DNA of 27,130 nt from assembly GCA_934183135.1 (NCBI GenBank), contig CAKPRX010000022.1, positions 1 through 27,130 of the forward strand, read 5' to 3'. Origin of the DNA: an uncultured Prevotella sp. Its GTDB lineage: Bacteria; Bacteroidota; Bacteroidia; Bacteroidales; Bacteroidaceae. Shown here one piece after another: positions 2,005 to 23,361 of this stretch. The notes under the pieces are model-generated. The model did not search any database. It worked only from the letters and a program-made list of their open reading frames with translations, and was not told where the DNA came from. Position 1 is the stretch's first letter; the number at the start of each line of letters is the position of its first letter. The position numbers were made by a program, and so were the translations under genes.

Positions 2005-3558
2005 TCATCTTTTTTTGGGTTTCAGTGTGATAAGGGGTATAAGCATCTCTTCCATGGATATGCCACCATGCTGGAATGTGTTCTTGTAGTAAGACACATA
2101 GTAGTTGTAGTTATTGGGATAGGCGAAGAAAGCATCGCCCGTGGCAAACACGTAGCTGGTACTCAGGTTGGGGGCCGGGAGCTGGGCCTGACGCGGGTCC
2201 TTGATGACAAACACCTCCTTGGAGTTATAGCTCAGGTTCTTGCCCAACTTGTAGCGCAGATTGGTGTTGGTATTACGGTCGCCAATAATACGGATGGGCT
2301 TGGTGGCGCGTATGGAGCCATGGTCGGTGGTGAGCACCACACGGCAGCCAGTCTGGGCGACTGCGCGGAAGAGGTCAGCGATAACAGAGTGGCGGAACCA
2401 GCCAAGGGTAAGGTTACGGTAAGCCGACTCGTCGTTGGCCAGCTCGCGTATCATCTTGGACTCGGTACGGGCATGCGAGAGCATATCGATAAAGTTGACC
2501 ACCACCACGTTCAGGTCATAAGCCGAGCACTCGTTGAGCCTACTGATAAACTTCTCGGCGCCGGCGCTGTCGTTAATCTTGCTGTAGCTGAAGGTGTCGT
2601 GGCGCCTATAGCGTTCTATCTGCGTCCGTATGAGCGGCTCCTCGTTCAGGTTCTTGCCCTCCTCCTCGTCCTCGTCTACCCACAGCTCCGGAAACATCGT
2701 GGCTATCTGCGTAGGCATCAGTCCGCTGAAGATAGCATTGCGTGCGTACTGCGTGGCAGTAGGCAGTATGCTGGTGTACATATCCTCGTCTATCTCATAG
2801 AGATCGCCTATCTGCGGGGCCAGCATGCGCCACTGGTCATAGCGGAAGTTGTCTATCACAATGAGGAACACCCGTTCGCCCGCATCCAGCATGGGGAAGA
2901 TGCGGCGGCTCATCACATCGGTACTCATCAGCGGCCGGTCCGTATTGCCAGGCTTTACCCAGTCCAGGTAATGCTGGCGGACAAACTTGGCAAACCCCAG
3001 GTTGGCCTCTTCCTTCTGCATCTGCAACATCTCGGTCATGGTACTGTCCGCGCTGCTCAGCTCGAGTTCCCAGTGGGTCAGCCGGCGGTACATGTCCATC
3101 CAGTCGGCCACCGAGCGGCACTCCATCATCTGCATCATCAGGTTCTGATAATTCTGCTGGTACCCGGTCTGCGTCACCTCGGTCACTATCTCCCGGCTGT
3201 GTATATTCTTCTTTAGGGTGAGCAGTATCTGGTGCGGGTTCACGGGCTTGATGAGATAGTCGGCTATCTTGGACCCTATGGCCTGGTCCATGATGTCCTC
3301 CTCCTCGCTCTTGGTAACCATTACCACAGGCGTGGCAGGACTCACCTCCTTGATACGCTGCAGGGTCTCCAGCCCGGTGAGTCCCGGCATCATCTCGTCG
3401 AGCAGCACCAGGTCGAAGGTGCGCTGGCTGCACATCTCTATGGCGTCGCTGCCATTGGTTACGGTCACCACGTCATACCCTTTTTTCTCCAGGAACAGTA
3501 TATGGGCCCGCAAGAGTTCTATCTCGTCGTCGACCCAAAGCAGTAATCCGTTAGTCAT
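2005..3558 (-). CDS. porX: PorX: response regulator with PglZ-type phosphodiesterase domain (T9SS regulator)
   Basis: 517 residues. Residues 1-120 are a CheY-like receiver with a complete set of key residues: D10/D11 acidic pocket, D54 phospho-acceptor (LVLLDEMMPG), T82 and K104. Residues about 215-515 form an alkaline-phosphatase-like PglZ domain; likely metal or catalytic residues are D236 (VIDNFRYDQW), the Thr in LPTATQYAR (267 or 269), D358, H362, D412-H413 (TTDHGS) and H497. This layout is that of PorX, which in Porphyromonas gingivalis works with PorY and SigP to control T9SS genes. No DNA-binding domain is present, as expected. No PorY-like histidine kinase lies in the window. It starts 40 nt after porW, and the leader carries a TATATATA tract about 15 nt before the ATG. 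Confidence 0.95.
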   Translation of the reverse strand: MTNGLLLWVDDEIELLRAHILFLEKKGYDVVTVTNGSDAIEMCSQRTFDLVLLDEMMPGLTGLETLQRIKEVSPATPVVMVTKSEEEDIMDQAIGSKIADYLIKPVNPHQILLTLKKNIHSREIVTEVTQTGYQQNYQNLMMQMMECRSVADWMDMYRRLTHWELELSSADSTMTEMLQMQKEEANLGFAKFVRQHYLDWVKPGNTDRPLMSTDVMSRRIFPMLDAGERVFLIVIDNFRYDQWRMLAPQIGDLYEIDEDMYTSILPTATQYARNAIFSGLMPTQIATMFPELWVDEDEEEGKNLNEEPLIRTQIERYRRHDTFSYSKINDSAGAEKFISRLNECSAYDLNVVVVNFIDMLSHARTESKMIRELANDESAYRNLTLGWFRHSVIADLFRAVAQTGCRVVLTTDHGSIRATKPIRIIGDRNTNTNLRYKLGKNLSYNSKEVFVIKDPRQAQLPAPNLSTSYVFATGDAFFAYPNNYNYYVSYYKNTFQHGGISMEEMLIPLITLKPKKR

Positions 3559-3598: not shown

Positions 3599-6500
3599 TT
3601 AGAAACCCTCTAAGTCGTAGTACTCGTCTTCTAAGTCAAACTTCTTCTTGGGCGGGGCCACCTTTTTCTTGGCCTTGCCCTTGAGGGTGTCGGCCGGGGC
3701 CGGAGTAGTCTTGTCACGGAAGTAGATACCCGTCTTGCTCACCGCGGGTTTAGGGGGCGCCGGGGCTGCGGGCTTGGCCGTGGGGGCAGCGGATGCCTTA
3801 CCCGTAGCGGGGGTCTTGGCCGCGGGGCGCGCGGTGGTCTTACCGGCAGCCGAGGGCTGGGTGGTGGGCAGGATGATACCCTTGCCTGTGTCCGAGGGCT
3901 TGGCCGCGGGGGCGGCCGTCTCGGCTGGCGGGAGGAGTATCCCGGTCTTGCCCGGAGTGGTCGCGGGCGCCGTAGTGGTGGCTCCGGGAAGTGTAACGGT
4001 AATTCCGGGCTTGCCAGAGGTGGCTCCGGGCGATGCCGGGGTGCTCTCCGGCTGTGTGGCGGGCACAAAGGTTTTGCCTGCCGGGGCCGACGGTTCGGTG
4101 GGAGCTGTCTGCCCGGTGGGTACCAGCGTACCGGCGGCCGGCGTGGTGGCGGCAGGCTCGTCGGGAGCCACATAGGTGCCACCCGTGCGCTGTCCGGCAT
4201 CCTCGGGCTCGGCCAGCAGCATGCCATCGTCGAGCGCACGGTCTATCTCCTCGACCGAGGGCTCGGGGGCAGGGCGCGTCACTATCTCATCGGGCTCTGT
4301 AAGCAGCCTGAAGGTGCTCACCTTCAGCGGGGCAAAGTGTTTGGCATAGTAGGCGGCATAGTCGTCGTAGCTATAGGGATGGCCTATAAGTTCCAGGTTG
4401 GCGTTGCTGATGACGAGCGAACGGCAACCGGGATAGCGCTGCACGATATGCTGGGCGTAGAGCTGGCGGGCATACTGCAGGGCCTCATCATAGTTGCGGA
4501 AAACGCTCACCTCCATGTGCTGCAGACCGCTGTGGTCGCTGACGGAGATTTCAAAGTTGCGCACCATGAAGTTGGTAAAGTTGTAGCGGGCCAGTTCGAA
4601 GAGTAGCTGGTTGACCTTTACAGAGTCGGGGGCATACACCAGCACGAACTTGAACTCAGCAGTGCGGTCGGGCGTAAACGTGCGCACAGAGTCGGCCGCT
4701 GCGCCACTCAGCACGGCGGCTCGCTGCGCCCACATGCCGTCCAGGTCAAACTTGTCGCTACGCAGCCGGCGACCCGCCTTCACTCCGTTGATAATCATGC
4801 CGGCCAGGGCACTTATATCGCTTTCCGGAAACTGGCTAACCACCCGCTGCAGGTCGGCCAGACAACTGTCTGGCTGACCGTCGTTCAACTTGGCCAAGGC
4901 TCCTATGAACAGGAACTTGTCGCGATTGGCACCCTGGGGGAAACGGCGGGCCGAGAAAGCGGTATTGGTACGCACCTCGGCCATGCGGTCGGCCTTGAAG
5001 GCGTTGTAGGTAGCCGCGTAGAGCGAGTCTTCCAGGTGTACGCCCACCCGGGCGTTCTCGGCAAAATAGGGGTCGGTCAGCACCGTTGTCCACTGGCTCT
5101 GCGCGTAGTGGCTCTTCAGGCTGTCCAGGCATCGCTGCGCCTGGGCCGACCGCTGCTGACGCATATAGAGCAGGTAGAGGTGGTAGTAAGCCTCGTCCAT
5201 GCCCGCATAGGTAGGATAATGGTCTGTCAGGCGGCACAGGTACTTCTCGCTGAGCCGTAGGTTGTCCAGTTTGTCCTTGAAGATGACGCCCGCATGGAAG
5301 AGGCCGTCCATGATAAGCTGGTCGCTCTCCTCCACCTGTTCGGGGGTAAATGGTATCTGGGCGAGGTAGTACTCGCGGCGATGGGGGTCGTTCTGGGCGC
5401 TGTCGGGCTGAGCCTTAATAGAGTCGGCGCGGGCAGCCTCGCGGGCCACCGAGTCGGCCTGCTGTGGGGTCAGGGTCTGCTCGTCGCCCGGTGCCGACAC
5501 CACCGTCTTGTTTATCCGTTGCCAGTTGTCCACATTCTCGCGCTTGCCCCAGAGTTTCTGGAACGTGGCCTTACCCTGGCTCACCGCCATGGGGTTATAG
5601 AAGTACCACTGGCCGTTGCCCTGCTGTCCCATGGTGGTCTGCTGGGTGTTGGCACGGCGGTTGCCGGCCATTCCCGTCTCACCCCCGTTCTGGCTCTGCA
5701 TGGCCTGGGCGTCGTTCTCCTGCTGGGCACGACGCTCCTCTTTCTCTTTCTTCTTCAGGGCCGCTATCACGCGGTCTATGGCGGCATTGCGCTCGGCCTC
5801 GCCCATGCGGGCCAGGGCCTGCAGCGAGTCCTGCAGGGCCACGGCCTCGGTATGGGGCACCAGTTCGTCCAGCACCTGCGACCGCTCAGACAGCTGCCGG
5901 TAGTCGGGGCGGTCCTGGTCCAGCAGTCCGATGGCCTCGCCATAGCAGCGGCGCGCATCCGAGAACTTCTCGCGCTGCCAGTACAGGTCGCCCAGACGCA
6001 GGAGCAGCACACCTTTCTCGACACCGCTACGGGTGGCCTTGCGGTTGCCCGTCTCGTAGGCCGACAGGGCGTGCAGGGTGTCGCGGTCGGCCAGATAGAT
6101 GTTGCCGATGGCGTAATATACCTGGTCGAGATATTCCTTGTTGTTGTCCGAGGCTGCCATACGGCGCAGCCTGCTTATCATACGTCGCGACTGACCCTTG
6201 GCCATCACCTCGGTCTGTGCGATACGCGCGTTGAACTCCAGTTCGTAAGGCGGGTTGAGCCTTATCACCCTGCGGTAAGCGCGGTAAGCCGAGTCGGGCT
6301 GGCCCACAGCGGCATAGAGCTGACCCAGCAGGAACCACTCACGGGCACGCTGCTTACGGCGCATCTCGTGGTGTATCACCCGGCGCACATAGGGTATGGC
6401 GCGGTGGTAGTCGGCCGTACGGAGATAGTAGTCGGCATAGGCATAGTCCCACTCCTTGACGGCGCGCCAGTCCATAGAGTCGCGGGCCATGTTGCGTATC

Positions 6501-7873
6501 ACGTCCTCGGCATCGTAGAGCCAGCCCCCCTCAGCGTAGCACTTGGCGAGCCAGGCCCGGGCCTTGCCGTAGATAGCGGGCTGGGTGGCATAGAGACGGC
6601 TCATGTACGAGAAGGTAGAGGCCGCCTCGTCGAAGGCTCCCATGTGAAACTGGGCACGGCCCATGAGCATCCAGGCTTTCCAGAGGAAGGGGTTGTACTC
6701 GCGACGGCTGAGCCACTCGATGTCGCGGGGTGTCTTGCGCCGCTGCTTGTCCCATACGGGACGGCGCTTGATGCTGTGCTGGTGTATGGCTTTCTCGGCC
6801 TTGGTCACCGCCGTCTCGTAGTAAGACTTGCCCAGCTCGCGACTGGCCTTGTTGCCCACCGGGTAGAGGGGTATCAGCTCGGTATAGTTGTCCTTGTTGC
6901 CCCGCTCTTTCTCCAAGGAGCCTTCCACGTAGGCCACAGAGCCGTTATAGTAAGTGTTGTAGCGCGCCTTGAAGGCATGCCACCAGCGCGACGACGACGT
7001 GTTCTTCTGGGTAGAGCACCCCGTGAGGGCCAGGACTGCCAGCGCCCACAGCAGGGCCCGCCGGCGCAGCAGGGCCACCATGGCGGCACGTCCCCAGCGG
7101 GCCAGGGCATAGACTACTACGGCCACCAGGATAATGGAGGCTCCCGAGGGCACATTGAGCAGATACGAGAGCGCCAGCCCGGCCATGCAGTCTATCCAGC
7201 CGATGACGATGCTCAGCCCTATCATACGCTTGTAGCTATAGGTAAACACATTGGCCGTCATCTGGGGAATGGTGAGCAGACTGATGGCCAGCACCACACC
7301 CACCAAGCGCAGCGTGGCCACTATGGTCATGGCGATGAGGGCCATCATAGTGTACTCTATCAGACTGACGGGCAACCGCCGTGAGCGGGCGAAGACGGGG
7401 TCGAACGCCACGCTGACTATGCTGTGGTAGAAGGCCACCGTGAGCATGCCCACCACCAGTGTGAGGGTGCCCAGGAGCACCAGGTCGGCCGTGCCGATGG
7501 TCAATATGCTTCCGAAAAGATACGAGTTGAGGTCGGGCATGAAACCGGGGGAGAGAAAACAGCAGATAATGCCCACGCTCATGCCCAGCGTCCAGAAAAA
7601 GGCGATAGTCGAGTCCTGGCGCACGTGGCCCTTGTGTGACAGCCACTGTACGCCCATGGCACTGGCCACGGAGAAGAGCAGCGCCGAGAGTATCGGACTG
7701 AATCCGAAGTAAACGCCCAGGCCAATACCGCCAAACGAGGCATGGGTAAGGCCGCCACTGATAAACACCAGGCGGCGCGTTACGATATAGGTGCCCACCA
7801 TGCCGCACAGGATGCTGGCCAGCAGGGAGCCGATAATGGCGTTCTGGAAGAAGGTGTACGTCAATATATCCAT
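3599..7873 (-). CDS. ABC-3 metal permease joined in frame to PorW/SprE TPR lipoprotein (1424 aa)
   Basis: One uninterrupted frame carries two proteins normally encoded separately. Residues 1-262 are a ZnuB/MntB-type ABC-3 permease: many membrane segments, GGLTHASFGGIGLG at 40-53, and RLVGVVLAISLLTIPQ at 189-204. From M265 the sequence is a lipoprotein signal peptide (MVALLRRRALLWALAVLALTG, lipobox Cys C286). It runs into the PorW/SprE start (SRWWHAFKARYNTYYNGSVAY, then GNKDNYTELIPLYPVGNK), many TPR-like helical repeats (about 380-1130), a Pro/Ala/Thr-rich tail (about 1247-1411) and the acidic end DLEDEYYDLEGF. PorW is a periplasmic or outer-membrane-associated T9SS lipoprotein. An internal start at 7081 would give a separate 1160-residue PorW, but then the permease would have no stop codon. 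Permease ATPase and binding-protein genes are absent nearby. The start overlaps the previous gene (TAATG). Confidence 0.85.
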   Translation of the reverse strand: MDILTYTFFQNAIIGSLLASILCGMVGTYIVTRRLVFISGGLTHASFGGIGLGVYFGFSPILSALLFSVASAMGVQWLSHKGHVRQDSTIAFFWTLGMSVGIICCFLSPGFMPDLNSYLFGSILTIGTADLVLLGTLTLVVGMLTVAFYHSIVSVAFDPVFARSRRLPVSLIEYTMMALIAMTIVATLRLVGVVLAISLLTIPQMTANVFTYSYKRMIGLSIVIGWIDCMAGLALSYLLNVPSGASIILVAVVVYALARWGRAAMVALLRRRALLWALAVLALTGCSTQKNTSSSRWWHAFKARYNTYYNGSVAYVEGSLEKERGNKDNYTELIPLYPVGNKASRELGKSYYETAVTKAEKAIHQHSIKRRPVWDKQRRKTPRDIEWLSRREYNPFLWKAWMLMGRAQFHMGAFDEAASTFSYMSRLYATQPAIYGKARAWLAKCYAEGGWLYDAEDVIRNMARDSMDWRAVKEWDYAYADYYLRTADYHRAIPYVRRVIHHEMRRKQRAREWFLLGQLYAAVGQPDSAYRAYRRVIRLNPPYELEFNARIAQTEVMAKGQSRRMISRLRRMAASDNNKEYLDQVYYAIGNIYLADRDTLHALSAYETGNRKATRSGVEKGVLLLRLGDLYWQREKFSDARRCYGEAIGLLDQDRPDYRQLSERSQVLDELVPHTEAVALQDSLQALARMGEAERNAAIDRVIAALKKKEKEERRAQQENDAQAMQSQNGGETGMAGNRRANTQQTTMGQQGNGQWYFYNPMAVSQGKATFQKLWGKRENVDNWQRINKTVVSAPGDEQTLTPQQADSVAREAARADSIKAQPDSAQNDPHRREYYLAQIPFTPEQVEESDQLIMDGLFHAGVIFKDKLDNLRLSEKYLCRLTDHYPTYAGMDEAYYHLYLLYMRQQRSAQAQRCLDSLKSHYAQSQWTTVLTDPYFAENARVGVHLEDSLYAATYNAFKADRMAEVRTNTAFSARRFPQGANRDKFLFIGALAKLNDGQPDSCLADLQRVVSQFPESDISALAGMIINGVKAGRRLRSDKFDLDGMWAQRAAVLSGAAADSVRTFTPDRTAEFKFVLVYAPDSVKVNQLLFELARYNFTNFMVRNFEISVSDHSGLQHMEVSVFRNYDEALQYARQLYAQHIVQRYPGCRSLVISNANLELIGHPYSYDDYAAYYAKHFAPLKVSTFRLLTEPDEIVTRPAPEPSVEEIDRALDDGMLLAEPEDAGQRTGGTYVAPDEPAATTPAAGTLVPTGQTAPTEPSAPAGKTFVPATQPESTPASPGATSGKPGITVTLPGATTTAPATTPGKTGILLPPAETAAPAAKPSDTGKGIILPTTQPSAAGKTTARPAAKTPATGKASAAPTAKPAAPAPPKPAVSKTGIYFRDKTTPAPADTLKGKAKKKVAPPKKKFDLEDEYYDLEGF
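3640..4135 (-). repeat. Low-complexity Pro/Ala/Thr tail repeats in PorW
   Basis: Codons for residues about 1247-1411 hold a degenerate unit around G-K-x-G-I-x-L-P, spaced by Pro/Ala/Thr linkers: GKTFVPA, GKPGITVTLPG, GKTGILLPP, GKGIILPTT, GKTTARP, GKASAAP and SKTGIYFRD. It probably forms an extended linker before the conserved C-terminus. Confidence 0.7.
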
Positions 7874-8256
7874 TATCTGTCTATCAGCATGATGAGCTCG
7901 TCCTTGAGGGGGTCGGGCAGGTTAATGCCACGCAGCACCAGGCTGCGGCTCCATCCTGCCACGTCGTCAGGGCGCAGGGTGTAGAGCACGTCGGCAAACT
8001 CCTGCACCTCATCATCGGTATAACCATCAGAAGGGCGGCCGCGGAAGCGGTCCAGCTCCTCGTCGTCATAATATTCTATCTCGCGGGTGGCCGCCTCCAG
8101 CATACAGTCTTGCTCACAGCGACTGTCGCCACCCGTACAGGTGCCGCAGGTGGGTTGCTGGGGCACGGGCTGCACATCGCCGCCATCCTTGGCATGCAGC
8201 GTGGTAAGGGCTGCCACCACACCTAAGGCTATCAGGGCCAGCACCAGATATATCAT
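7873..8256 (-). CDS. Small Cys-rich single-span membrane protein, function unknown
   Basis: 127 residues. Residues 1-20 are one hydrophobic helix (MIYLVLALIALGVVAALTTL) that could be a signal anchor. Then comes a cysteine cluster, C37-x2-C40-x6-C47-x3-C51 (TCGTC, RCEQDCMLEAA), and an acidic C-terminal half (YYDDEELDRFRGR, TDDEVQEFADVLYTL). The cluster could bind a metal or an Fe-S centre, or form disulfides; the sequence alone does not decide. The gene is translationally coupled on both sides: its ATG overlaps the aroA stop (ATGA), and its TAA overlaps the permease ATG (TAATG). I do not recognise a named family. Its position directly before a metal permease makes a metal-related role conceivable, but that is inference. 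Confidence 0.8.
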   Translation of the reverse strand: MIYLVLALIALGVVAALTTLHAKDGGDVQPVPQQPTCGTCTGGDSRCEQDCMLEAATREIEYYDDEELDRFRGRPSDGYTDDEVQEFADVLYTLRPDDVAGWSRSLVLRGINLPDPLKDELIMLIDR

Positions 8257-9500
8257 GGGGTCTGCGTAATCTTAAATCCGGCCCTGCGCAGGTCGTCCCA
8301 GTAGTGGGGATACGACTTGGACACCACCTCGGGATGGTTAATGGTGACGGGGCCCATGGCCAGGGCTGCGGGGGCAAAGGCCATGGCCATGCGGTGGTCC
8401 TGGTAGGTATCTATGGGCTCCATGGTGGGGGCGCACCGCTCGCCATTCCATATCAGCTCGCTGCCATGGCGGTCTGTAAGCAGTACACCCAACTTGCGCA
8501 ACTCGCACTTGAGGGCCTCTATGCGGTCGGTCTCCTTGATTTTCAGGCTGGCCAGCCCCGTGAAGTGGAAGGGGATGCCCTTAGCAGCACAGGCCACGAC
8601 GAATGTCTGGGCCAAATCGGGCGAATTGACAAAGTCGTAGTCCAGCCGGGGGAGCGTGCAGCCATGACTGGCGAGCACCACCTGCTGCCTACCGTCGGCG
8701 AGGGTGTCAAAGGTGGTCTTGACACCCATCAGCGAACCGATATAGCGGGTCACGGAGTCGCCCTGACGCGACCCGTCGCTCAGGCCAGACAGCACTACAC
8801 GGGCCTCGGGCTTGTTCAGCAGGGCCACAACCTCGTACCAGTACGAGGCGGCACTCCAGTCGTTCTCCACGGCATACGTGGTGGGGGTATAGGGTATGGG
8901 GGCCACGCTGATGGTGTCTACGTCGCTCCACTCGGCCTGCGCGCCAAACTCGGTCATCGTCCACAGGGTGAGGTCTATGTAGGGCCGCGACACGATGTCG
9001 CCCGTGAGCCTCAGCGTGAGGCCCTGTCTGAGCATGGGCCCTATCATCAGCAGGGCCGAGATGTACTGCGAGCTCACATTGCCGGCCACCTCCAGGGTGC
9101 CGCCCGCCAAGGGACGGCCCATGATACGCAGCGGTGGAAAGCCCTCGGTTCCTAAGTACTCGATGTGGGCGCCCAACTGGCGCAGGGCATCGACCAGCAC
9201 ACCTATGGGGCGCTGGCGCATACGCTCGGTACCCGTCAGCGTGTGGGTGCCCGTACCTACACTCAGGTAGGCGGCCATAAAGCGCATGGCGGTACCCGCG
9301 GCGCCTATGTCTATTACCTCGGGCAGGTCGCGCAGGGCGGCGGCCATCACGCGGGTGTCGTCACAGTCTGACAGGTTGGCGGGCAGCATAGTGCTGCCCG
9401 CAAGTGCCTGGATAATGAGCGCCCGGTTACAGATGCTCTTGGACGCAGGCAGATTTATAGTGGTGTCTATCAGGCTCGGGGCCTGTATAGTGTATTGCAT
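8253..9500 (-). CDS. aroA: 3-phosphoshikimate 1-carboxyvinyltransferase (EPSP synthase)
   Basis: 415 residues, slightly short of the usual 420-450. It joins shikimate-3-phosphate and phosphoenolpyruvate to EPSP in aromatic amino-acid and chorismate synthesis. Visible motifs are LPASKSICNRALI (K21, S22, R26), GAAGTAMRF (the counterpart of GNAGTAxR), RQRPIG, the substrate-binding GNVSSQYISALLM, LKIKETDRI and the C-terminal YQDHRMAMAFA. All key regions are intact, so it should be active. The start at 9500 fits the family N-terminus (MQYTIQAPS). No TAnnTTTG promoter is visible in the 73 nt before it, so it may be read from the metalloprotease promoter or from an atypical one. The stop overlaps the next ATG by 4 nt. 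Confidence 0.95.
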   Translation of the reverse strand: MQYTIQAPSLIDTTINLPASKSICNRALIIQALAGSTMLPANLSDCDDTRVMAAALRDLPEVIDIGAAGTAMRFMAAYLSVGTGTHTLTGTERMRQRPIGVLVDALRQLGAHIEYLGTEGFPPLRIMGRPLAGGTLEVAGNVSSQYISALLMIGPMLRQGLTLRLTGDIVSRPYIDLTLWTMTEFGAQAEWSDVDTISVAPIPYTPTTYAVENDWSAASYWYEVVALLNKPEARVVLSGLSDGSRQGDSVTRYIGSLMGVKTTFDTLADGRQQVVLASHGCTLPRLDYDFVNSPDLAQTFVVACAAKGIPFHFTGLASLKIKETDRIEALKCELRKLGVLLTDRHGSELIWNGERCAPTMEPIDTYQDHRMAMAFAPAALAMGPVTINHPEVVSKSYPHYWDDLRRAGFKITQTP

Positions 9501-11008: not shown

Positions 11009-12904
11009 CTACGCCCATTTGAGGCGCAGGCTGTTGAGCACCACGCTCACGCTGCTCATGGCCATGAGGGCGCTGGCCCACATGGGGGTTATCTGGAAAT
11101 CGGTAACGGCATAGAGGGCTCCGGCAGCCAGCGGTATGCACACCACGTTGTACACGAAGGCCCAGAAGAGGTTCTGGTGTATCATGCCCACCGTCTGGCG
11201 CGACAGGGTCACGGCATCGGCTATGCGGCGCAGGTCGGTGCCCATCAGCGTAACCTGGGCCACGTCGATGGCCACATCGGTACCACGGCCCATGGCTATG
11301 CTCACGTCGGCGGCGGCCAGCGCCTGACTGTCATTGATGCCGTCGCCCACCATGGCCACGCGGTGGCCATGGCCCTGGAGCGTCCGCACCAGGTTCTCCT
11401 TGTCCTGTGGCAGCACCCTACTCTTCCAGTGGCCGATGCCCACCTGTCTGGCCCAGTAGCTCACGGCCTCGTCGCGGTCGCCGCTCATCAGGTAGACGGC
11501 TATGCCAGCCTGCTGCAACCGGGCGATGGCCTCGGCGGCATGGGGCTTGAGCGACTCGCGCTCGGTGATGCCCATGTCGGCTGTGGCGCCCTCGCGTGGC
11601 AGGGTCAGGGTACCCGTCTTGTCTATCACCATGGCATCTATGCGCCGCATGTTCTCCAGGGCGGTGGCGTCGCGCACCAGGATGCCTTCCTGGGCGGCAC
11701 GCCCTATGCCCACCATGAGGGCGGTAGGCGTGGCCAGCCCCATGGCACACGGGCAGGCGATGACCAGTACCGACACGGCCGACAGGATGGCACGGGGGAG
11801 CTGGGCGGTGCCGCCCAGGACCAGCCAGAGCACCAGGGTGAGGAGCGACAGCCCGAAGACGGTAGGAACGAAGATGGCCGCGAGGCGGTCTACCACGCGC
11901 TGAACGGGTGCCTTGGAGCCCTGGGCCTGCTGCACGGCGCGTATGATGTGGGCCAGCATGGTGTGGCTGCCCACCTGCTCGGCCCTGAAGCGCAGGGCGC
12001 CCCGGCGCACCATCGTACCGGCCAGCACGCGGTCGGCGGGATGCTTCTCTATCAGCTCGGGCTCGCCGCTTATCATGCTCTCATCGACATAGGCCGCGTC
12101 GGTGCCCCAGCTCACCACACTGCCGTCTACCGGCATCTTCTCGCCGGCACGCACCTCTATCAGGTCGCCCGGCTGCAGGGCCGTGAGGGGTATGTCGGTA
12201 ACCCCGTCGGCAGTAACCACATGGGCGGTGCGCGGGGCCAGTTCCATCAGCGACCGTATGGCCGTGGCCGTGCTGCGCTTGGCCCGCTCCTCTAACAGGC
12301 GGCCGGTAAGTACAAAGGCCAGTATCATCACCGTGGCATCATAGTAGGTGTGCCACGACAGGCCGGCGGATGCCCAGAAGCTCCTGCCCCAGAAGGTATT
12401 GAACACGCTGAACGCGAAAGATATGAGGGTGCTCATGGCCACCAGGGTGTCCATGTTGGCTGCATGGTGGGTAAGCTGTCGCCAGGCCGAGGTATAGAAC
12501 TGGCGGCCACACCACACCATGGCAGCGGCGGCCAGCAGCATCATGGTCTGGTTGGCCGTGTCGGCGCTGCCCAGGTGTACCCACCCCATGCTGATGGCCA
12601 TGGTGAGCACGGCCAGCACCCAGGCCAGCACCATGCGTCGCAGCAGCAGGCGATAGGCCCGTCGTTCTATCTGTTCGACATTGCGGTCGTCTTCGATGAC
12701 CATGTCATAGCCCACACCGCTCAGGGCCTCTTTCATGGCCTGGGGCGAGGTGCGGGTGGGGTCGTAGGTTACCAGCACCGTGCGGGCGGCCAGGTTTACA
12801 TTGGCCTGGACCACTCCGTCTATCTCGCGGAGGCGCCGCTCTACGTTGGCGGCACATCCGGCGCACATCATGCCTAACACGGCTATTGTCCTTGTTTCCA
12901 TCAT
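11009..12904 (-). CDS. copA: Copper-type P1B ATPase with a missing nucleotide-binding domain
   Basis: 631 residues from the ATG at 12904 (MMETRT; 12901 is equally possible). Order: HMA metal-binding domain with GMMCAGC (C14, C17); membrane segments from about 91; actuator domain with SGEP (279-282); CPC in the ion-path helix (C384-P385-C386); phosphorylation motif DKTGTLT (D428); GDGIND (520-525); and the C-terminal pair of helices. It should export monovalent copper (CPC class). Oddity: only about 15 residues separate DKTGTLT from the ESLKPHAAEAI segment of the P-domain. In CopA proteins roughly 100 more residues lie there, carrying the N-domain with the SEHPL motif that contacts ATP. D428 to GDGIND spans about 93 residues against roughly 190 normally. 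The frame is otherwise intact. A longer start at 13018 would cross the promoter and was rejected. Confidence 0.88.
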   Translation of the reverse strand: MMETRTIAVLGMMCAGCAANVERRLREIDGVVQANVNLAARTVLVTYDPTRTSPQAMKEALSGVGYDMVIEDDRNVEQIERRAYRLLLRRMVLAWVLAVLTMAISMGWVHLGSADTANQTMMLLAAAAMVWCGRQFYTSAWRQLTHHAANMDTLVAMSTLISFAFSVFNTFWGRSFWASAGLSWHTYYDATVMILAFVLTGRLLEERAKRSTATAIRSLMELAPRTAHVVTADGVTDIPLTALQPGDLIEVRAGEKMPVDGSVVSWGTDAAYVDESMISGEPELIEKHPADRVLAGTMVRRGALRFRAEQVGSHTMLAHIIRAVQQAQGSKAPVQRVVDRLAAIFVPTVFGLSLLTLVLWLVLGGTAQLPRAILSAVSVLVIACPCAMGLATPTALMVGIGRAAQEGILVRDATALENMRRIDAMVIDKTGTLTLPREGATADMGITERESLKPHAAEAIARLQQAGIAVYLMSGDRDEAVSYWARQVGIGHWKSRVLPQDKENLVRTLQGHGHRVAMVGDGINDSQALAAADVSIAMGRGTDVAIDVAQVTLMGTDLRRIADAVTLSRQTVGMIHQNLFWAFVYNVVCIPLAAGALYAVTDFQITPMWASALMAMSSVSVVLNSLRLKWA

Positions 12905-12930
12905 TGTTCTGTCATTCTGTCTATCTTCTG

Positions 12931-12938
12931 CAAAGGTA
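12931..12938 (-). promoter_or_regulatory. -7 box of the copper ATPase promoter
   Basis: On the minus strand this reads TACCTTTG, matching TAnnTTTG, 27 nt before the ATG at 12904. No TTTG is found at the expected -33 position, which suggests a weak promoter that needs an activator. Confidence 0.6.
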
Positions 12939-12942
12939 CACA

Positions 12943-12956
12943 CTATCGGCCGATAG
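12943..12956. promoter_or_regulatory. Perfect 14-bp palindrome in the copper ATPase promoter spacer
   Basis: CTATCGGCCGATAG is fully self-complementary and begins 5 bp upstream of the -7 box, where the promoter spacer lies. This position suits an activator that reshapes the spacer or a repressor that blocks it. The neighbouring HMA-AraC protein is one candidate binder, although AraC proteins often use direct repeats. Confidence 0.5.
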
Positions 12957-13019
12957 GGCGTTATGTTTTTCTGCGAAAAGGTTATAACATTCTGCCACGG
13001 TGGTCGTAGGCCCACCAAT

Positions 13020-17811: not shown

Positions 17812-18093
17812 CTACGAGCGCTTAGGCTCGTCGTCCTCGACCGTATAATCTACATATTCGCCATCATCCTTAGAGAATATCTTCTGACGGGCTTTCTGTG
17901 GGTCGCGGTTGTCTATGACCCCCTCACGGCCACGTGCGGGGTTGGCCGAACCACGCTGGCGCGAGGCACCGGCGGCAGGATTCTTGAGGCCATCCATAAA
18001 ACTGCGCAGCCGCCACAGGAGCTTGACGCCCGTTACGAGGACGGTTATGATGCCTATCAGAAAGACAATGGCTATCAGTTTAATAAAAATCAT
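17812..18093 (-). CDS. DUF4834 family small membrane protein
   Basis: 93 residues. One membrane helix spans about residues 3-28 (IKLIAIVFLIGIITVLVTGV), followed by a basic, Gly/Arg-rich stretch and the acidic conserved end DDGEYVDYTVEDDEPKRS. Bacteroidetes carry this family next to pssA, and the ATG overlaps the pssA stop by 4 nt (ATGA), so it is translationally coupled to it. Its role is unknown; a link to the membrane or to PE synthesis is suggested only by context. The family name is from recall of sequence and context. Confidence 0.75.
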   Translation of the reverse strand: MIFIKLIAIVFLIGIITVLVTGVKLLWRLRSFMDGLKNPAAGASRQRGSANPARGREGVIDNRDPQKARQKIFSKDDGEYVDYTVEDDEPKRS

Positions 18094-18809
18094 GGCTTGT
18101 CAGCTTTGGTTAGATTGCTGTATAACGACAGGATGATGTACCAGGCTATAGCAAGGGCTATGCCCAACACCTGGAACAGCAACAGGAGGGGGATGCAGCA
18201 GAGAATAAATATGTACTTGAGCTGATTGCCCTGCCAGCCCCAGTGCTTGAACTTGAGGGCGAACATGGGTATCTCGGCCACGAGCAGCCAGCAACTTACA
18301 GCCACCATGACCAGCAGGAGGGGAAGCCCCCAGGGGGTGCTCTCGATACGGTCGGCACAGCCTATGACAAAGGCACCCCAGAACAGAGCATTGGCTGGCG
18401 TGGGCAAGCCTATGAACCCCATGGTCTGGCGCTCGTCCAGATTGAACTTGGCCAGCCGGAGGGCCGAGAAGGCCGCCATGACAAAGGCCGCATAAGGCAG
18501 CACATCGCGCAGGGGTGCCAGCAGGGCCGGGTACTCGAGGATATAAAGTTCATTGAATATGATGGCCGACGGGGCCACGCCAAAGGTGATGTCGTCGGCC
18601 AGCGAGTCGAGCTCCTTGCCTATGGGCGACGACACGTGGAGCAACCGGGCGCTCATGCCGTCAAAGAAGTCGAACACGGCGCCCATCACTATCCACAGCA
18701 GCGCCATCTGGGGATTGCCGGCAAGGGCATAGGTTACGGCTACGCAGCCCGACACCAGGTTGCAGCAGGTGATGGTATTTGGGATGTTTCTCTTAATGGC
18801 TCGTATCAT
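18090..18809 (-). CDS. pssA: CDP-diacylglycerol-serine O-phosphatidyltransferase
   Basis: 239 residues, all-membrane. It carries the CDP-alcohol phosphotransferase motif D-x2-D-G-x2-A-R-x8-G-x3-D-x3-D: D47, D50, G51, A54, R55, G64, D68 and D72 (DFFDGMSARLL, GKELDSLAD). It transfers phosphatidyl from CDP-diacylglycerol to serine in the inner membrane, making phosphatidylserine for the decarboxylase encoded 6 nt upstream. The start MIRAIKRNIPNTIT is typical of the family. All catalytic aspartates are present. Confidence 0.95.
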   Translation of the reverse strand: MIRAIKRNIPNTITCCNLVSGCVAVTYALAGNPQMALLWIVMGAVFDFFDGMSARLLHVSSPIGKELDSLADDITFGVAPSAIIFNELYILEYPALLAPLRDVLPYAAFVMAAFSALRLAKFNLDERQTMGFIGLPTPANALFWGAFVIGCADRIESTPWGLPLLLVMVAVSCWLLVAEIPMFALKFKHWGWQGNQLKYIFILCCIPLLLLFQVLGIALAIAWYIILSLYSNLTKADKP

Positions 18810-18815
18810 TATCCG

Positions 18816-19511
18816 TCAATCTTTTAATTTGGCTATCACGGTCTGGTCGCCTGTGGTAGACTGGCCCATCTTGACACATATCTCGGTGCCGAGGGGCAGG
18901 TAGACATCCACGCGCGACCCGAACTTGATAAAGCCCAAGTGCTCGTCGATGAAGCACTCTTCGCCCTCCTTGGCATAGGTCACTATACGCCGGGCCACGG
19001 CTCCGGCTATCTGCCGGCACAGTATGTCGGTGCCCTCGGGGGTGGTTATCATTATATCGGCATGCTCGTTCTCCTCGCTGGCCTTGGGCAGCCATGCCTT
19101 GTGGTAGTTGCCGTTCTGGTGGTGTACGAACTTGACCTTGCCGTCGACCGGGAACCAGTTGGCGTGTACATTGAACAGGCTCATGAAGATAGACACCATC
19201 AGGCGGCGGTCATGGAAGTACTCATTCTCCTCGACCTCCTCGATAACGACTATCTTGCCATCGGCCGGAGCCACCACCAACCTGGCGGTGCCCTCACTGT
19301 TGAAGTAGCGGATGGGACATCTGAAGAAGTTGAGTATTACGGCATAGACAGCGCCGAACACCACAAGAAAAGTCCAAAACGGTATCTTGGTGTCAAAGGC
19401 TCTGTGCAGCAGAAGCGCCACGGCGGCTATAATGATAAATCCGTATATGATTGTGTCGGTTCCCTCGCGGTGTATTCTTATTTTCTTTAGCTTCTTAATT
19501 CTGTTGCCCAT
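18816..19511 (-). CDS. psd: Phosphatidylserine decarboxylase proenzyme
   Basis: 231 residues, the short Psd type. Two membrane helices lie near 20-36 and 44-62. Catalytic residues are D84 (APADG), H116 (NVHANWF) and the self-cleavage site G198-S199 (KFGSRVDV), where the new Ser becomes the pyruvoyl group. It converts phosphatidylserine to phosphatidylethanolamine. The start at 19511 ([17 protein letters not shown]) was chosen because the promoter -7 box is at 19536-19543; a longer frame reaching 19643 would cross both this promoter and that of dnaE. It is first in the psd-pssA-DUF4834 operon, so the two PE-synthesis steps are co-expressed. Confidence 0.95.
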
Positions 19512-19535
19512 AATAGACGGTATATATATTAGGTG

Positions 19536-19567
19536 CAAAGTTACACTAATTGTAGTTATGTCGCAAA
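19536..19567 (-). promoter_or_regulatory. Promoter of the psd operon
   Basis: On the minus strand: TTTG (19564-19567), a 20-bp spacer, then TAACTTTG (19536-19543). The leader is about 18 nt and includes TAATATATATA. It is back to back with the dnaE promoter. Confidence 0.75.
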
Positions 19568-19583
19568 TAATGGCAGATTTTTT

Positions 19584-19615
19584 TTTGGACATGTCGCTAA
19601 TTATCTGTAACTTTG
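19584..19615 (+). promoter_or_regulatory. dnaE promoter
   Basis: TTTG (19584-19587), a 20-bp spacer, then TAACTTTG (19608-19615). The leader to the ATG at 19645 is about 24 nt. The psd and dnaE -33 boxes are only 16 bp apart, so the two polymerases probably compete. Confidence 0.7.
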
Positions 19616-19644
19616 ACAGCCAAAAATATGTTTTTCGCGCCATT

Positions 19645-22600
19645 ATGGAAGATTTCGTTCACCTGCACGTACACACCCATTACTCTATTCTTGACGGACA
19701 GTCCAAGGTTCCCCATCTCGTAGACAAGGCTATCGCTGACGGCATGCGCGGCATGGCCCTTACCGACCACGGAGTAATGTACGGCGTGAAGGAACTGGCC
19801 GACTACTGTGCCGGCATCAACAAGAAACGCGCCAAAGAGGGGCTGGAGCCTTTCAAGCCTATCCTGGGCTGCGAGATGTACGTGGCCCGCCATCGCAAAG
19901 AGGACAAGGTCAAGGAGAACGGCGACAACAGCGGTTACCACCTGATAGTCCTGGCCAAGAACTACCATGGCTACAAGAACCTTATCAAGCTGGTGTCGCG
20001 AGCCTGGACCGACGGCTACTACTATCGCCCGCGTACCGACCGGGCCGACCTGGAGAAATATCACGAAGACCTCATCGTATGCTCGGCCTGTATCGCCGGC
20101 GAGGTTCCGGCCAAGATACTCAAGGGCGACATGGACGGCGCGCGCGAGGCTTGCCAGTGGTACCACCGGGTGTTTGGCGACGACTACTACCTGGAGCTGC
20201 AGCGCCACGAGGTAAAGGACCCCAACGTGCTGGCCAACCGCGAGACGTTCCCCCTCCAGCAGAAGGCCAACAAGGTGCTTATCCAGTTTGCCCGCGAATA
20301 CGGCATCAAGCTGGTGTGTACCAACGACTGTCACTTCGAGGACAAGGATACGGCCGAGGCTCACGACCACCTGCTGTGCCTGGCCACCGGCAAGGACCTG
20401 GACGACCCCAACCGCATGCGCTACTCCAAGCAGGAATGGTTCAAGACGCGGGCCGAGATGAACGAGGTGTTTGCCGATATACCTGAGGCATTGGCCAATA
20501 CCACCGAGATACTGGACAAGGTGGAGATATACAGCATAGACCATGGCCCCATCATGCCTTTCTTCCCCATACCCGAGAGTTTCGGCACCGAGGAAGAGTG
20601 GCGCCACAAGTTTACTGAGGAACAGCTCTTCCACGAGTTTACCAGCGACGAGAAGGGCGAGAACACCCTGCCCCCCGAGGAGGGGCAGAAGGTGATAGAC
20701 CGGCTGGGCGGCTACGACAAGATATACCGTATCAAGTTTGAGGCCGACTACCTGGCACACCTGGCCTACAAGGGCGCGCGCGAACTCTATGGCGACCCGC
20801 TGCCCGACAACGTGCGGGAGCACATCAACTTCGAGCTGCACGTGATGAAGACCATGGGCTTCCCCGGCTACTTCCTTATCGTGTCAGACTTTATCAACGC
20901 GGCCCGCCAGGAGCTGGGCGTGTGGGTGGGCCCTGGCCGTGGCTCGGCTGCAGGCTCCGTGGTGGCCTACTGCTTAGGCATTACCAAGATAGACCCACTG
21001 AAGTACGACTTGCTGTTTGAGCGTTTTCTGAACCCGGACCGTGTAAACCTGCCTGATATAGACACCGACTTTGACGACGACGGGCGTGGCCGCGTGCTGC
21101 GATGGGTAATGGACAAGTACGGGCATGAGAACTGCGCCCACATCATTACCTACCAGGCCATGGCGACCAAGAACTCTATCAAGGACGTGGCTCGCGTGGA
21201 GCGGCTGCCGCTCGACAAGTCGAACGCGCTGTGCAAGGCCATCCCCGACCGTCTGCCCGACGGCATGAAAATGAACCTGACCAACGCCATCAAGGCGACG
21301 CCGGAACTGCGCGACGCCGAGGCTTCAGACAATCCGCAAGAGCGCAACACCATCAAATACGCCAAGATGCTGGAGGGCACCGTGCGTGGCGTGGGACTGC
21401 ACGCCTGCGGTTTTATCATCTGTCGCGACCCCATCAGCGACTGGGTGCCCGTGTCTACCGCCGACGACCCCGACTTCCCGCAGTTCAAGACGGCCGTTAC
21501 CCAGTACGACGGCCATGTCATCGAGTCGACCGGCCTTATCAAGATGGACTTCCTGGGACTGAAAACGCTGTCGGAGCTCAAGGAGGCGGTGAAGAACGTG
21601 AAACAGACGATGGGCATAGACGTGGACATAGACCGCATACCCATCGACGACGAGCTTACCTACAAGCTCTACCAGGAAGGCCGCACCATCGGAACGTTCC
21701 AGTTCGAGTCGCCGGGCATGCAGAAATATCTGCGCGAGCTACACCCCACGGTATTCGAAGACCTCATCGCCATGAACGCCCTCTACCGCCCGGGGCCCAT
21801 GGACTACATACCCGACTTCATCAAACGTAAGCACGACCCCTCGCTGGTCACTTACGACATTCCCTGTATGGAGAAATATCTCAAAGACACCTACGGCATC
21901 ACGGTGTACCAGGAGCAGGTGATGCTCCTGTCGCGCCAACTGGCCAACTTCACCCGCGGCGAGAGCGACGCACTGCGTAAGGCCATGGGTAAGAAGAAAA
22001 AGGCCATTGTTGACGCCATGAAGCCCAAGTTTATCAAGCAGGGACAGGAGAATGGCCACGACCCCAAGATTCTGGAGAAGATATGGGGCGACTGGGAGAA
22101 GTTTGCCTCGTATGCGTTCAACAAGTCGCACGCCACCTGCTACTCGTGGGTGGCCTATCAGACTGCCTACATGAAGGCTCACTATCCTGCCGAGTTTATG
22201 GCAGCCATTATGACTCGCCGCAAGAGCGACATCAAGGAGATAACCAAGCTCATGGACGAGTGTCGTACCTACGGCGTGCCCACGCTGGGCCCCGATGTAA
22301 ACGAGAGTTATGAGAACTTCGGTGTGAACCAGCGCGGTGAGATACGTTTCGGCCTGGCGGCCATCAAGGGTATGGGCGAGGCTGCGGCTGCAGCCATCAT
22401 AGCCGAGCGCGACAAGAATGGGCCCTTTAAGGACATCTACGACTTCGCCGAGAGGGTCGATTTCCGCAACGTGAACCGCAAAGCCTTTGAAAGTCTGGCT
22501 TATAGTGGCGGTTTTGACAACTTCGGGCTATACCGCGAGCAGTACTTTGCTCCCTGTGGCAAGGACGATAGTTTCCTGGATGCCATCGTACGCTATGGAC

Positions 22601-23361
22601 AGCGCTATCAGGCCAGCATGGCCGAGGCTGCCAACTCGCTCTTCGGGGCCAGCGATGTAGAGATAGCCCGCCCCATGCCGTCGAAGCCCGAACGGTGGAA
22701 CACCTTTGAACGCCTGAACCGAGAGCGCGACCTGGTGGGCATCTACCTGTCGGCTCACCCGCTGGACGACTACAAGGTGGTGCTCACCCACCTGTGTAAT
22801 ACGCCCTGTACCGACATCCGCGGGCGCGACACTGACTATAACGCCCTGGCCCGGGTACAGGAGGTCACCTTTGGCGGCATCATCACCGAGGTCAAGGAGC
22901 GTTTCTCGTCGCGTACCAACAAGCCTTTTGGCATTGTCAGCATCGAGGACTACAGCGGAACGGGCGAGTTCACCCTCTTTGACGAGGAATGGACACGCTG
23001 GAGCAGCATGCTCAAACACGAGTACACCGTACGCATTACCGGACAGTGTACAGAGCGGTTCCGGGGAACGGGCAACTACAGGCTGTCCATACTGAACATA
23101 GAGTTCTTGGACGATGTGAAGCGGAGGGGCTTTGACAACATGACCATAACGATAGACAGCACCTCGATAGACGAGACCCAGGCCAATGAGCTGCTGACCC
23201 TTATCGAGGAGAACCCCGGTGCAACGCAACTCAGCCTGCGCCTGTGCGACGGCACGCAGTATGGCGAGGTGACCCTACGCGCCAGGAACAGTATTAATAT
23301 ATGCAAGCAGTTGCTGGACTTCTGCGAGACGACCGCGGGACTGGGCTACCAGTTTGCCTAA
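19645..23361 (+). CDS. dnaE: DNA polymerase III alpha subunit
   Basis: 1238 residues, normal for DnaE1. Order: PHP domain ([13 protein letters not shown], residues 6-18, with H6/H8/H10; then DHGVMYG); polymerase core with [11 protein letters not shown] (about 429) and the catalytic pair D471/D473 in [13 protein letters not shown]; fingers ([67 protein letters not shown]); helix-hairpin-helix (about 910-940); OB fold from about 1074 ([16 protein letters not shown]); and a short C-terminal domain. It is the replicative polymerase, acting with the clamp and DnaX complex. The start [10 protein letters not shown] lies just after the promoter; an upstream in-frame ATG at 19387 would read through psd and was rejected. 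It stands alone and ends at the terminator at 23429-23478. Confidence 0.97.

Follow-up and report, generated by a model that had tools for sequence, protein, structure and literature searches.

Can one gene supply both an inner-membrane metal permease and a lipoprotein of the T9SS? The question is raised by a stretch of DNA of 27,130 nucleotides from an uncultured Prevotella sp. (contig CAKPRX010000022.1, positions 1 to 27,130, assembly GCA_934183135.1; hereafter the window), in which an ABC-3 permease and the T9SS protein PorW/SprE had been predicted to share one open reading frame, with a lipoprotein signal peptide at their junction. We examined the frame, its neighbors, and the corresponding loci of related genomes.

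Composition of the fused frame and its operon

The frame occupies positions 3599 to 7873 of the minus strand (coordinates below are on this strand unless marked plus) and comprises 1424 codons, free of stops across the permease and PorW/SprE parts; its GC content is 62%. Residues 6 to 258 (7100–7858) matched the ABC-3 profile PF00950 with 217.7 bits against a cut-off of 20.1 and covered profile positions 2 to 254 of 258, indicating a full-length domain. Residues 280 to 1027 (4793–7036) matched NF052312 (T9SS_PorW_SprE) with 852 bits against a cut-off of 250, and the remainder of PorW (3599–4792) consists of a C-terminal region and a Pro/Ala/Thr-rich tail. The open frame and the two matches above cut-off agree with the original prediction of a complete permease joined to PorW/SprE. 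Solved chains related to the permease by sequence are those of the Mn permease (7kyo and 7kyp) and of ZnuB (9oko). The protein scored 93.8 bits with the ZnuB equivalog model NF007089, below its cut-off of 284, and also fell under the cut-off of the AztB equivalog model, so that neither model assigns a metal to the permease.

Between the two domains lies a short basic linker (residues 259–274, 7052–7099), which forms both the C-terminal tail of the permease and the n-region of the signal peptide, followed by a hydrophobic core and the lipobox LTGC (residues 275–286, 7016–7051). The lipobox itself spans residues 283 to 286 (7016–7027), with Cys286 at 7016–7018; the type II signal peptide was assigned by eye and by motif. 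The only ATG near it, that of M265, stands in frame at 7079–7081 behind the leader CCCGCTGGGGACGTGCCGCC. M265 and C286, between which the signal peptide had been placed, were thus both found. A programmed frameshift that would make the permease alone was considered and rejected, since the 300 nt around the junction hold a single slippery-type heptamer, in the wrong phase. A 696-codon frame antisense to the fused gene (5294–7384, plus strand) is most likely a shadow ORF of the GC-rich coding strand.

The fused gene is part of a tightly packed operon with the order aroA, Cys-rich gene, permease, porW, and porX. The aroA gene for EPSP synthase (8253–9500) ends in a TGA that overlaps the ATG of the next gene (ATGA). 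This gene (7873–8256), separate in the window, encodes a Cys-rich one-helix protein of 127 amino acids without a Pfam or NCBIfam match, and its TAA in turn overlaps the permease ATG (TAATG). The response regulator gene porX of the T9SS (2005–3558; NF052313, 838 bits) follows 40 nt downstream of the fused gene. With overlaps of this kind, loss of the last stop codon would be a small step. A relative of the Cys-rich protein was also found 400 to 1500 nt upstream of porW, that is, upstream of the permease, in 54 of 59 permease-bearing loci; the protein represents an uncharacterized family tied to T9SS genes.

Farther along, the window carries a gene for a copper-type P-type ATPase with an HMA domain (11009–13018), and adjacent genes for phosphatidylserine synthase and decarboxylase in the region of 18090–19643. 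The decarboxylase gene is overlapped by 257 nt by a dnaE frame with a TTG start on the opposite strand (19387–23361, plus strand); the true dnaE start is probably later because the first dnaE domain begins only at residue 92.

Permease and Cys-rich fusions in related genomes

A sequencing or assembly error that conceals a stop codon could also explain the long frame, and some relatives do have two genes: a permease lies directly upstream of a separate porW in a different frame in 38 of 307 loci, and in 10 of 307 the two share a frame but are divided by a stop codon (some genomes contribute several loci). However, permease–PorW fusions made up 66 of 121 proteins (the best 120 of 7771 matches plus the window protein; 65 were recognized by motif, and P0027, whose motif differs, was added), with 56 to 91% identity to the window protein over the aligned part. 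Among the listed fusions, the 90% cluster P0003 stands for 1802 member sequences. At the DNA level, fusion was seen in five genomes, those of loci L109 to L112 and of L001, the nearest locus, which is 91% identical to the window. These fused proteins and loci rule out an artifact as a general explanation, and we regard an error in the window as extremely improbable. Two genes in different frames, named with the original prediction as an observation that would refute it in close relatives, are found in more distant relatives, yet the closest relatives are fused; because of this, and because fusions recur across the PorW tree, the distant two-gene loci do not refute the fusion. The gene fusion is real and recurrent.

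When the candidate whose leader is richest in A is taken as the porW start, half of the separate pairs (18 of 36) have porW beginning within the end of the permease gene and overlapping its stop codon, as in ordinary overlapping, translationally coupled genes; in the fusions this stop is gone. At a further locus, L146 (genome G371), the match across permease and porW reads through 12 stops and the permease frame is short, so that the permease may be decaying.

The permease is not the only partner. DNA upstream of porW was available for 197 of 399 genomes, mostly from the best-scoring rows and not as a random sample, and for one of them (G311) extended less than 900 nt. Within the DNA examined, no permease was detected upstream of porW in 248 of 307 loci. 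In 204 of these, the next upstream gene is usually the Cys-rich one-helix protein, which lies less than 400 nt from porW in 173. In the other 44, which correspond to 35 genomes, the reading frame of the Cys-rich protein itself continues into the PorW signal peptide. By genome, the 197 comprise 5 with the permease fusion, 35 with the Cys-rich fusion, 28 with separate permease–porW pairs, and 129 others; genome G372 (locus L158) was later moved by hand to the Cys-rich class, which raises it to 36 genomes, and these figures as well as the start-codon counts below predate the move. In the genomes sampled, the Cys-rich fusion is therefore commoner than the permease fusion, and it occurs where the permease is absent.

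The Cys-rich motif was present within the PorW frame in 44 of 44 Cys-fused loci, 13 of which had been scored as upstream instead of in frame, an outcome that we attribute to matches starting before the last stop. Eight of the fused extensions were compared with the 127-residue protein of the window, with E-values computed against a handful of sequences. Those of L150, L158, and L276 are full-length relatives (E 3e-54 to 5e-47), the first with 58% identity over 127 amino acids (E 3e-54); four short extensions matched weakly (E 4e-6 to 4e-4), and that of L130 gave no match (E 0.26). The presumed kinship of the short forms with the Cys-rich protein rests also on the common helix, the CxxC motif, and their position. 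Four other loci, L216 (G387), L237 (G544), L242 (G429), and L211 (G427), have porW frames without a usual start between codons −35 and −15. Their upstream in-frame sequence shows neither the permease nor the Cys-rich motif and perhaps represents further fusions or unusual starts.

Both fusion types recur on PorW phylogenies in which the fusion groups were defined from sequences and not from the tree. By parsimony, which does not separate gain from loss, the permease fusion takes 7 changes on each of three PorW trees and the Cys-rich fusion 6 or 5 on two trees; well-supported branches force 4, 3, and 3 of these changes for the permease type and 3 and 3 for the Cys-rich type. One of the trees consists of 47 rows chosen by hand out of 276, and in the 276-row tree the single-member clusters P0022, P0026, and P0027 each count as their own lineage; genome G500 was left out because its lipobox was not located. 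Holding the permease-fused rows as one clade cost 209 log-likelihood units (p-AU 5e-45), and holding the Cys-fused rows as one clade cost 103 (p-AU 1.7e-4), so a single origin was rejected for each type. On the PorW tree, the fused P0022 adjoins Segatella copri, which has separate genes. As judged from these trees, more than one event is needed for each type.

Lipobox conservation and candidate starts at the junction

The lipobox Cys was present in all 32 rows of an alignment in which the site was not chosen by a Cys pattern. It was likewise retained in the 30 permease-type representatives left by greedy clustering at 88% (some pairs still reach 92%), and the counts of 31/31 permease-type representatives and 36/36 Cys-type genomes were obtained with a pattern that itself requires the Cys. 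Comparison of the window with L001 gave, for the 24 codons of linker and core, 7 nonsynonymous changes against 2 synonymous ones and, for the four lipobox codons, few as they are, 2 changes, both synonymous; the permease shows 9 nonsynonymous and 46 synonymous changes, and the PorW core shows 39 and 123. In the fusions examined, the linker thus changes while the lipobox Cys is kept. The linker is basic in all of the 31 permease-type representatives, with a net charge between +2 and +6, as would suit a turn on the cytoplasmic side, and this would give the permease type a compatible topology. The topology of the Cys-rich type is less clear because only 24 of 36 have a net positive charge in the 15 residues that precede the signal core. 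An AlphaFold model of residues 1 to 400 was too weak to be of use (mean pLDDT 66.9); in it, the final helix of the permease runs without a break into the signal helix.

Two proteins could also arise without any cutting if PorW were started, additionally or mainly, inside the long frame, in the window at the ATG at 7081. The position of this ATG is suitable, 21 codons before Cys286, as the likely starts of separate pairs mostly lie 20 to 24 codons before the Cys. Its leader is poor in A. Bacteroidetes lack Shine–Dalgarno sites, and A at position −3 aids initiation in Flavobacterium johnsoniae, according to PMC6847099. The 20 nt before 7081 hold one A, as against 7, 6, 8, 10, and 12 before aroA, the 127-residue gene, the fused gene, porX, and tsaE, respectively. 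The earlier remark that no A-rich leader precedes 7081 was borne out by these five gene starts on the same strand. In the six permease-fused genomes with DNA, the window included, the best leader of any candidate start has 2 to 4 A per 20 nt, whereas the two classes of separate pairs have medians of 8 and 11 (quartiles 7–10 and 10–12; one-sided Mann–Whitney test of permease-fused against separate pairs, p 7e-5); the A count is a proxy, and both coding constraint and base composition also affect this comparison.

A Met lies 15 to 40 residues before the Cys in 11 of 30 permease-type representatives, but 9 of 30 have no Met at the junction at all, as seen in the proteins, where GTG and TTG are not visible, and L001 has no ATG at −21. 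Among Cys-fused genomes, ATG, GTG, or TTG is absent from codons −35 to −15 in 20 of 35, compared with 0 of 36 separate permease–porW pairs (Fisher p 1e-8) and 9 of 136 others. The other 15 Cys-fused genomes have such a codon, an ATG in 5, and in 9 of these 15 the best leader holds 7 to 11 A, like real starts; internal starts are for this reason possible in some Cys-fused genomes. Where the Cys-rich frame begins, the leader contains 8.9 A on average (22 of 35 scored). Taken together, these results make an internal start unlikely as the general solution, and we give only a minor chance to PorW being produced in this way.

Proposed processing of the fused protein

In each of the five permease-fused genomes, all drafts, no ABC-3 match other than the fused gene was found, and PorW was also sole: one copy above cut-off in G001 and one match each in G221, G546, G291, and G334. 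One chain must therefore supply both the inner-membrane permease and the PorW lipoprotein. ZnuA was present in four of the five and was not detected in G001, the genome nearest to the window, a draft MAG whose incompleteness may explain this; nor was it detected in the two Cys-fused genomes checked. One of these two, G451, carries an ABC-3 match at another place, but a weak one (26.6 bits). A gene for LspA was found in all ten fused genomes checked, five per type, and SprA_N in eight. SprA_N was not detected in the Cys-fused drafts G372 and G418, possibly through incompleteness, and a working T9SS is therefore not established for every fused genome.

We consider it quite probable that the fused gene encodes a precursor polyprotein that is cut by signal peptidase II, the partner staying in the inner membrane and PorW being freed for the outer one. 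The permease half would insert into the inner membrane with its C-terminus, judging from the predicted topology, in the cytoplasm. Its short basic tail would double as the n-region of the PorW signal peptide, and PorW would be exported as from a signal peptide of its own. Lgt would then lipidate Cys286, and signal peptidase II (LspA) would cut before this residue. The permease would stay behind in the inner membrane, where the old signal peptide would form an additional helix at its C-terminus, and PorW would move on to the outer membrane. That LspA cuts a polyprotein behind a polytopic membrane domain is what we infer from these sequences. Stop-free junctions would have arisen repeatedly from the packed operon, the partner being the permease in some cases and the Cys-rich protein in others.

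The chain could instead stay uncut, so that PorW, tethered to the inner-membrane permease, would bridge metal uptake and the secretion machine. The continuous frame and the compatible topology, with a basic linker in 31 of 31 representatives, would allow this. However, the lipobox Cys, needless for an uncut tether, is strictly kept, and the partner differs between lineages. In addition, P. gingivalis PorW is an outer-membrane lipoprotein that faces the periplasm and bridges or binds PorN and Sov, according to PMC8754138, and given this location a PorW permanently attached to a permease of the inner membrane would be in the wrong place. As one chain supplies both proteins, cutting at the lipobox reconciles the two membranes and a tether does not. 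We therefore hold a tether to be very unlikely. Of the three options first proposed for this locus, the comparative evidence favors release at the lipobox and makes the other two, a tether and initiation at 7081, less likely. The suggested coupling of a metal permease to a secretion system found no support, as a different membrane protein, the Cys-rich neighbor, is fused to the same signal peptide in other lineages. An interchangeable partner suggests that the fusion is not about what the partner itself does, and the driver was probably operon compaction and coupled expression rather than a common function.

The PorW part shares with P. gingivalis PorW/SprE (PMC8754138) the NF052312 homology, the lipobox, a Ser after the Cys, and the neighboring porX. 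It differs in that it probably has no start of its own and in that a permease or a Cys-rich membrane protein precedes its signal peptide within the frame. The permease shares the full PF00950 domain with ABC-3 permeases such as ZnuB and the Mn permease 7kyo, but its C-terminal tail merges with a lipoprotein signal peptide. A closer parallel in architecture is FbcH of Bradyrhizobium, reportedly described by Thony-Meyer et al. in 1989, a cytochrome b/c1 precursor that is said to be encoded by one gene and cut at an internal signal peptide, by signal peptidase I, into subunits of one complex. There too, a polytopic membrane protein and an exported protein share one frame with an internal signal peptide between them. 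By contrast, the proteins described here are joined by a lipobox, are functionally unrelated, belong in different membranes, and recur with two partners. No such fusion was named in the published titles and abstract openings that we searched for PorW fusions and internal lipoboxes. A polyprotein cut at an internal signal peptide would thus be of a known kind, and an internal lipobox behind a polytopic protein with interchangeable partners appears to be absent from those titles and abstract openings.

If the proposed processing is true, a lipoprotein signal peptide can function even when an entire polytopic membrane protein precedes it, and one chain is turned into two proteins by signal peptidase II. 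The fusions would then show, in repeated natural trials, to what extent Lgt and LspA accept internal substrates. More broadly, we lean, with some reserve, toward the view that signal peptidase II serves Prevotella-like bacteria as an enzyme of polyprotein processing, by which unrelated inner-membrane partners and a secretion lipoprotein are cut apart at an internal lipobox. This arrangement would have arisen on several occasions and may extend more widely among the Bacteroidota, whose ribosomes work without Shine–Dalgarno use.
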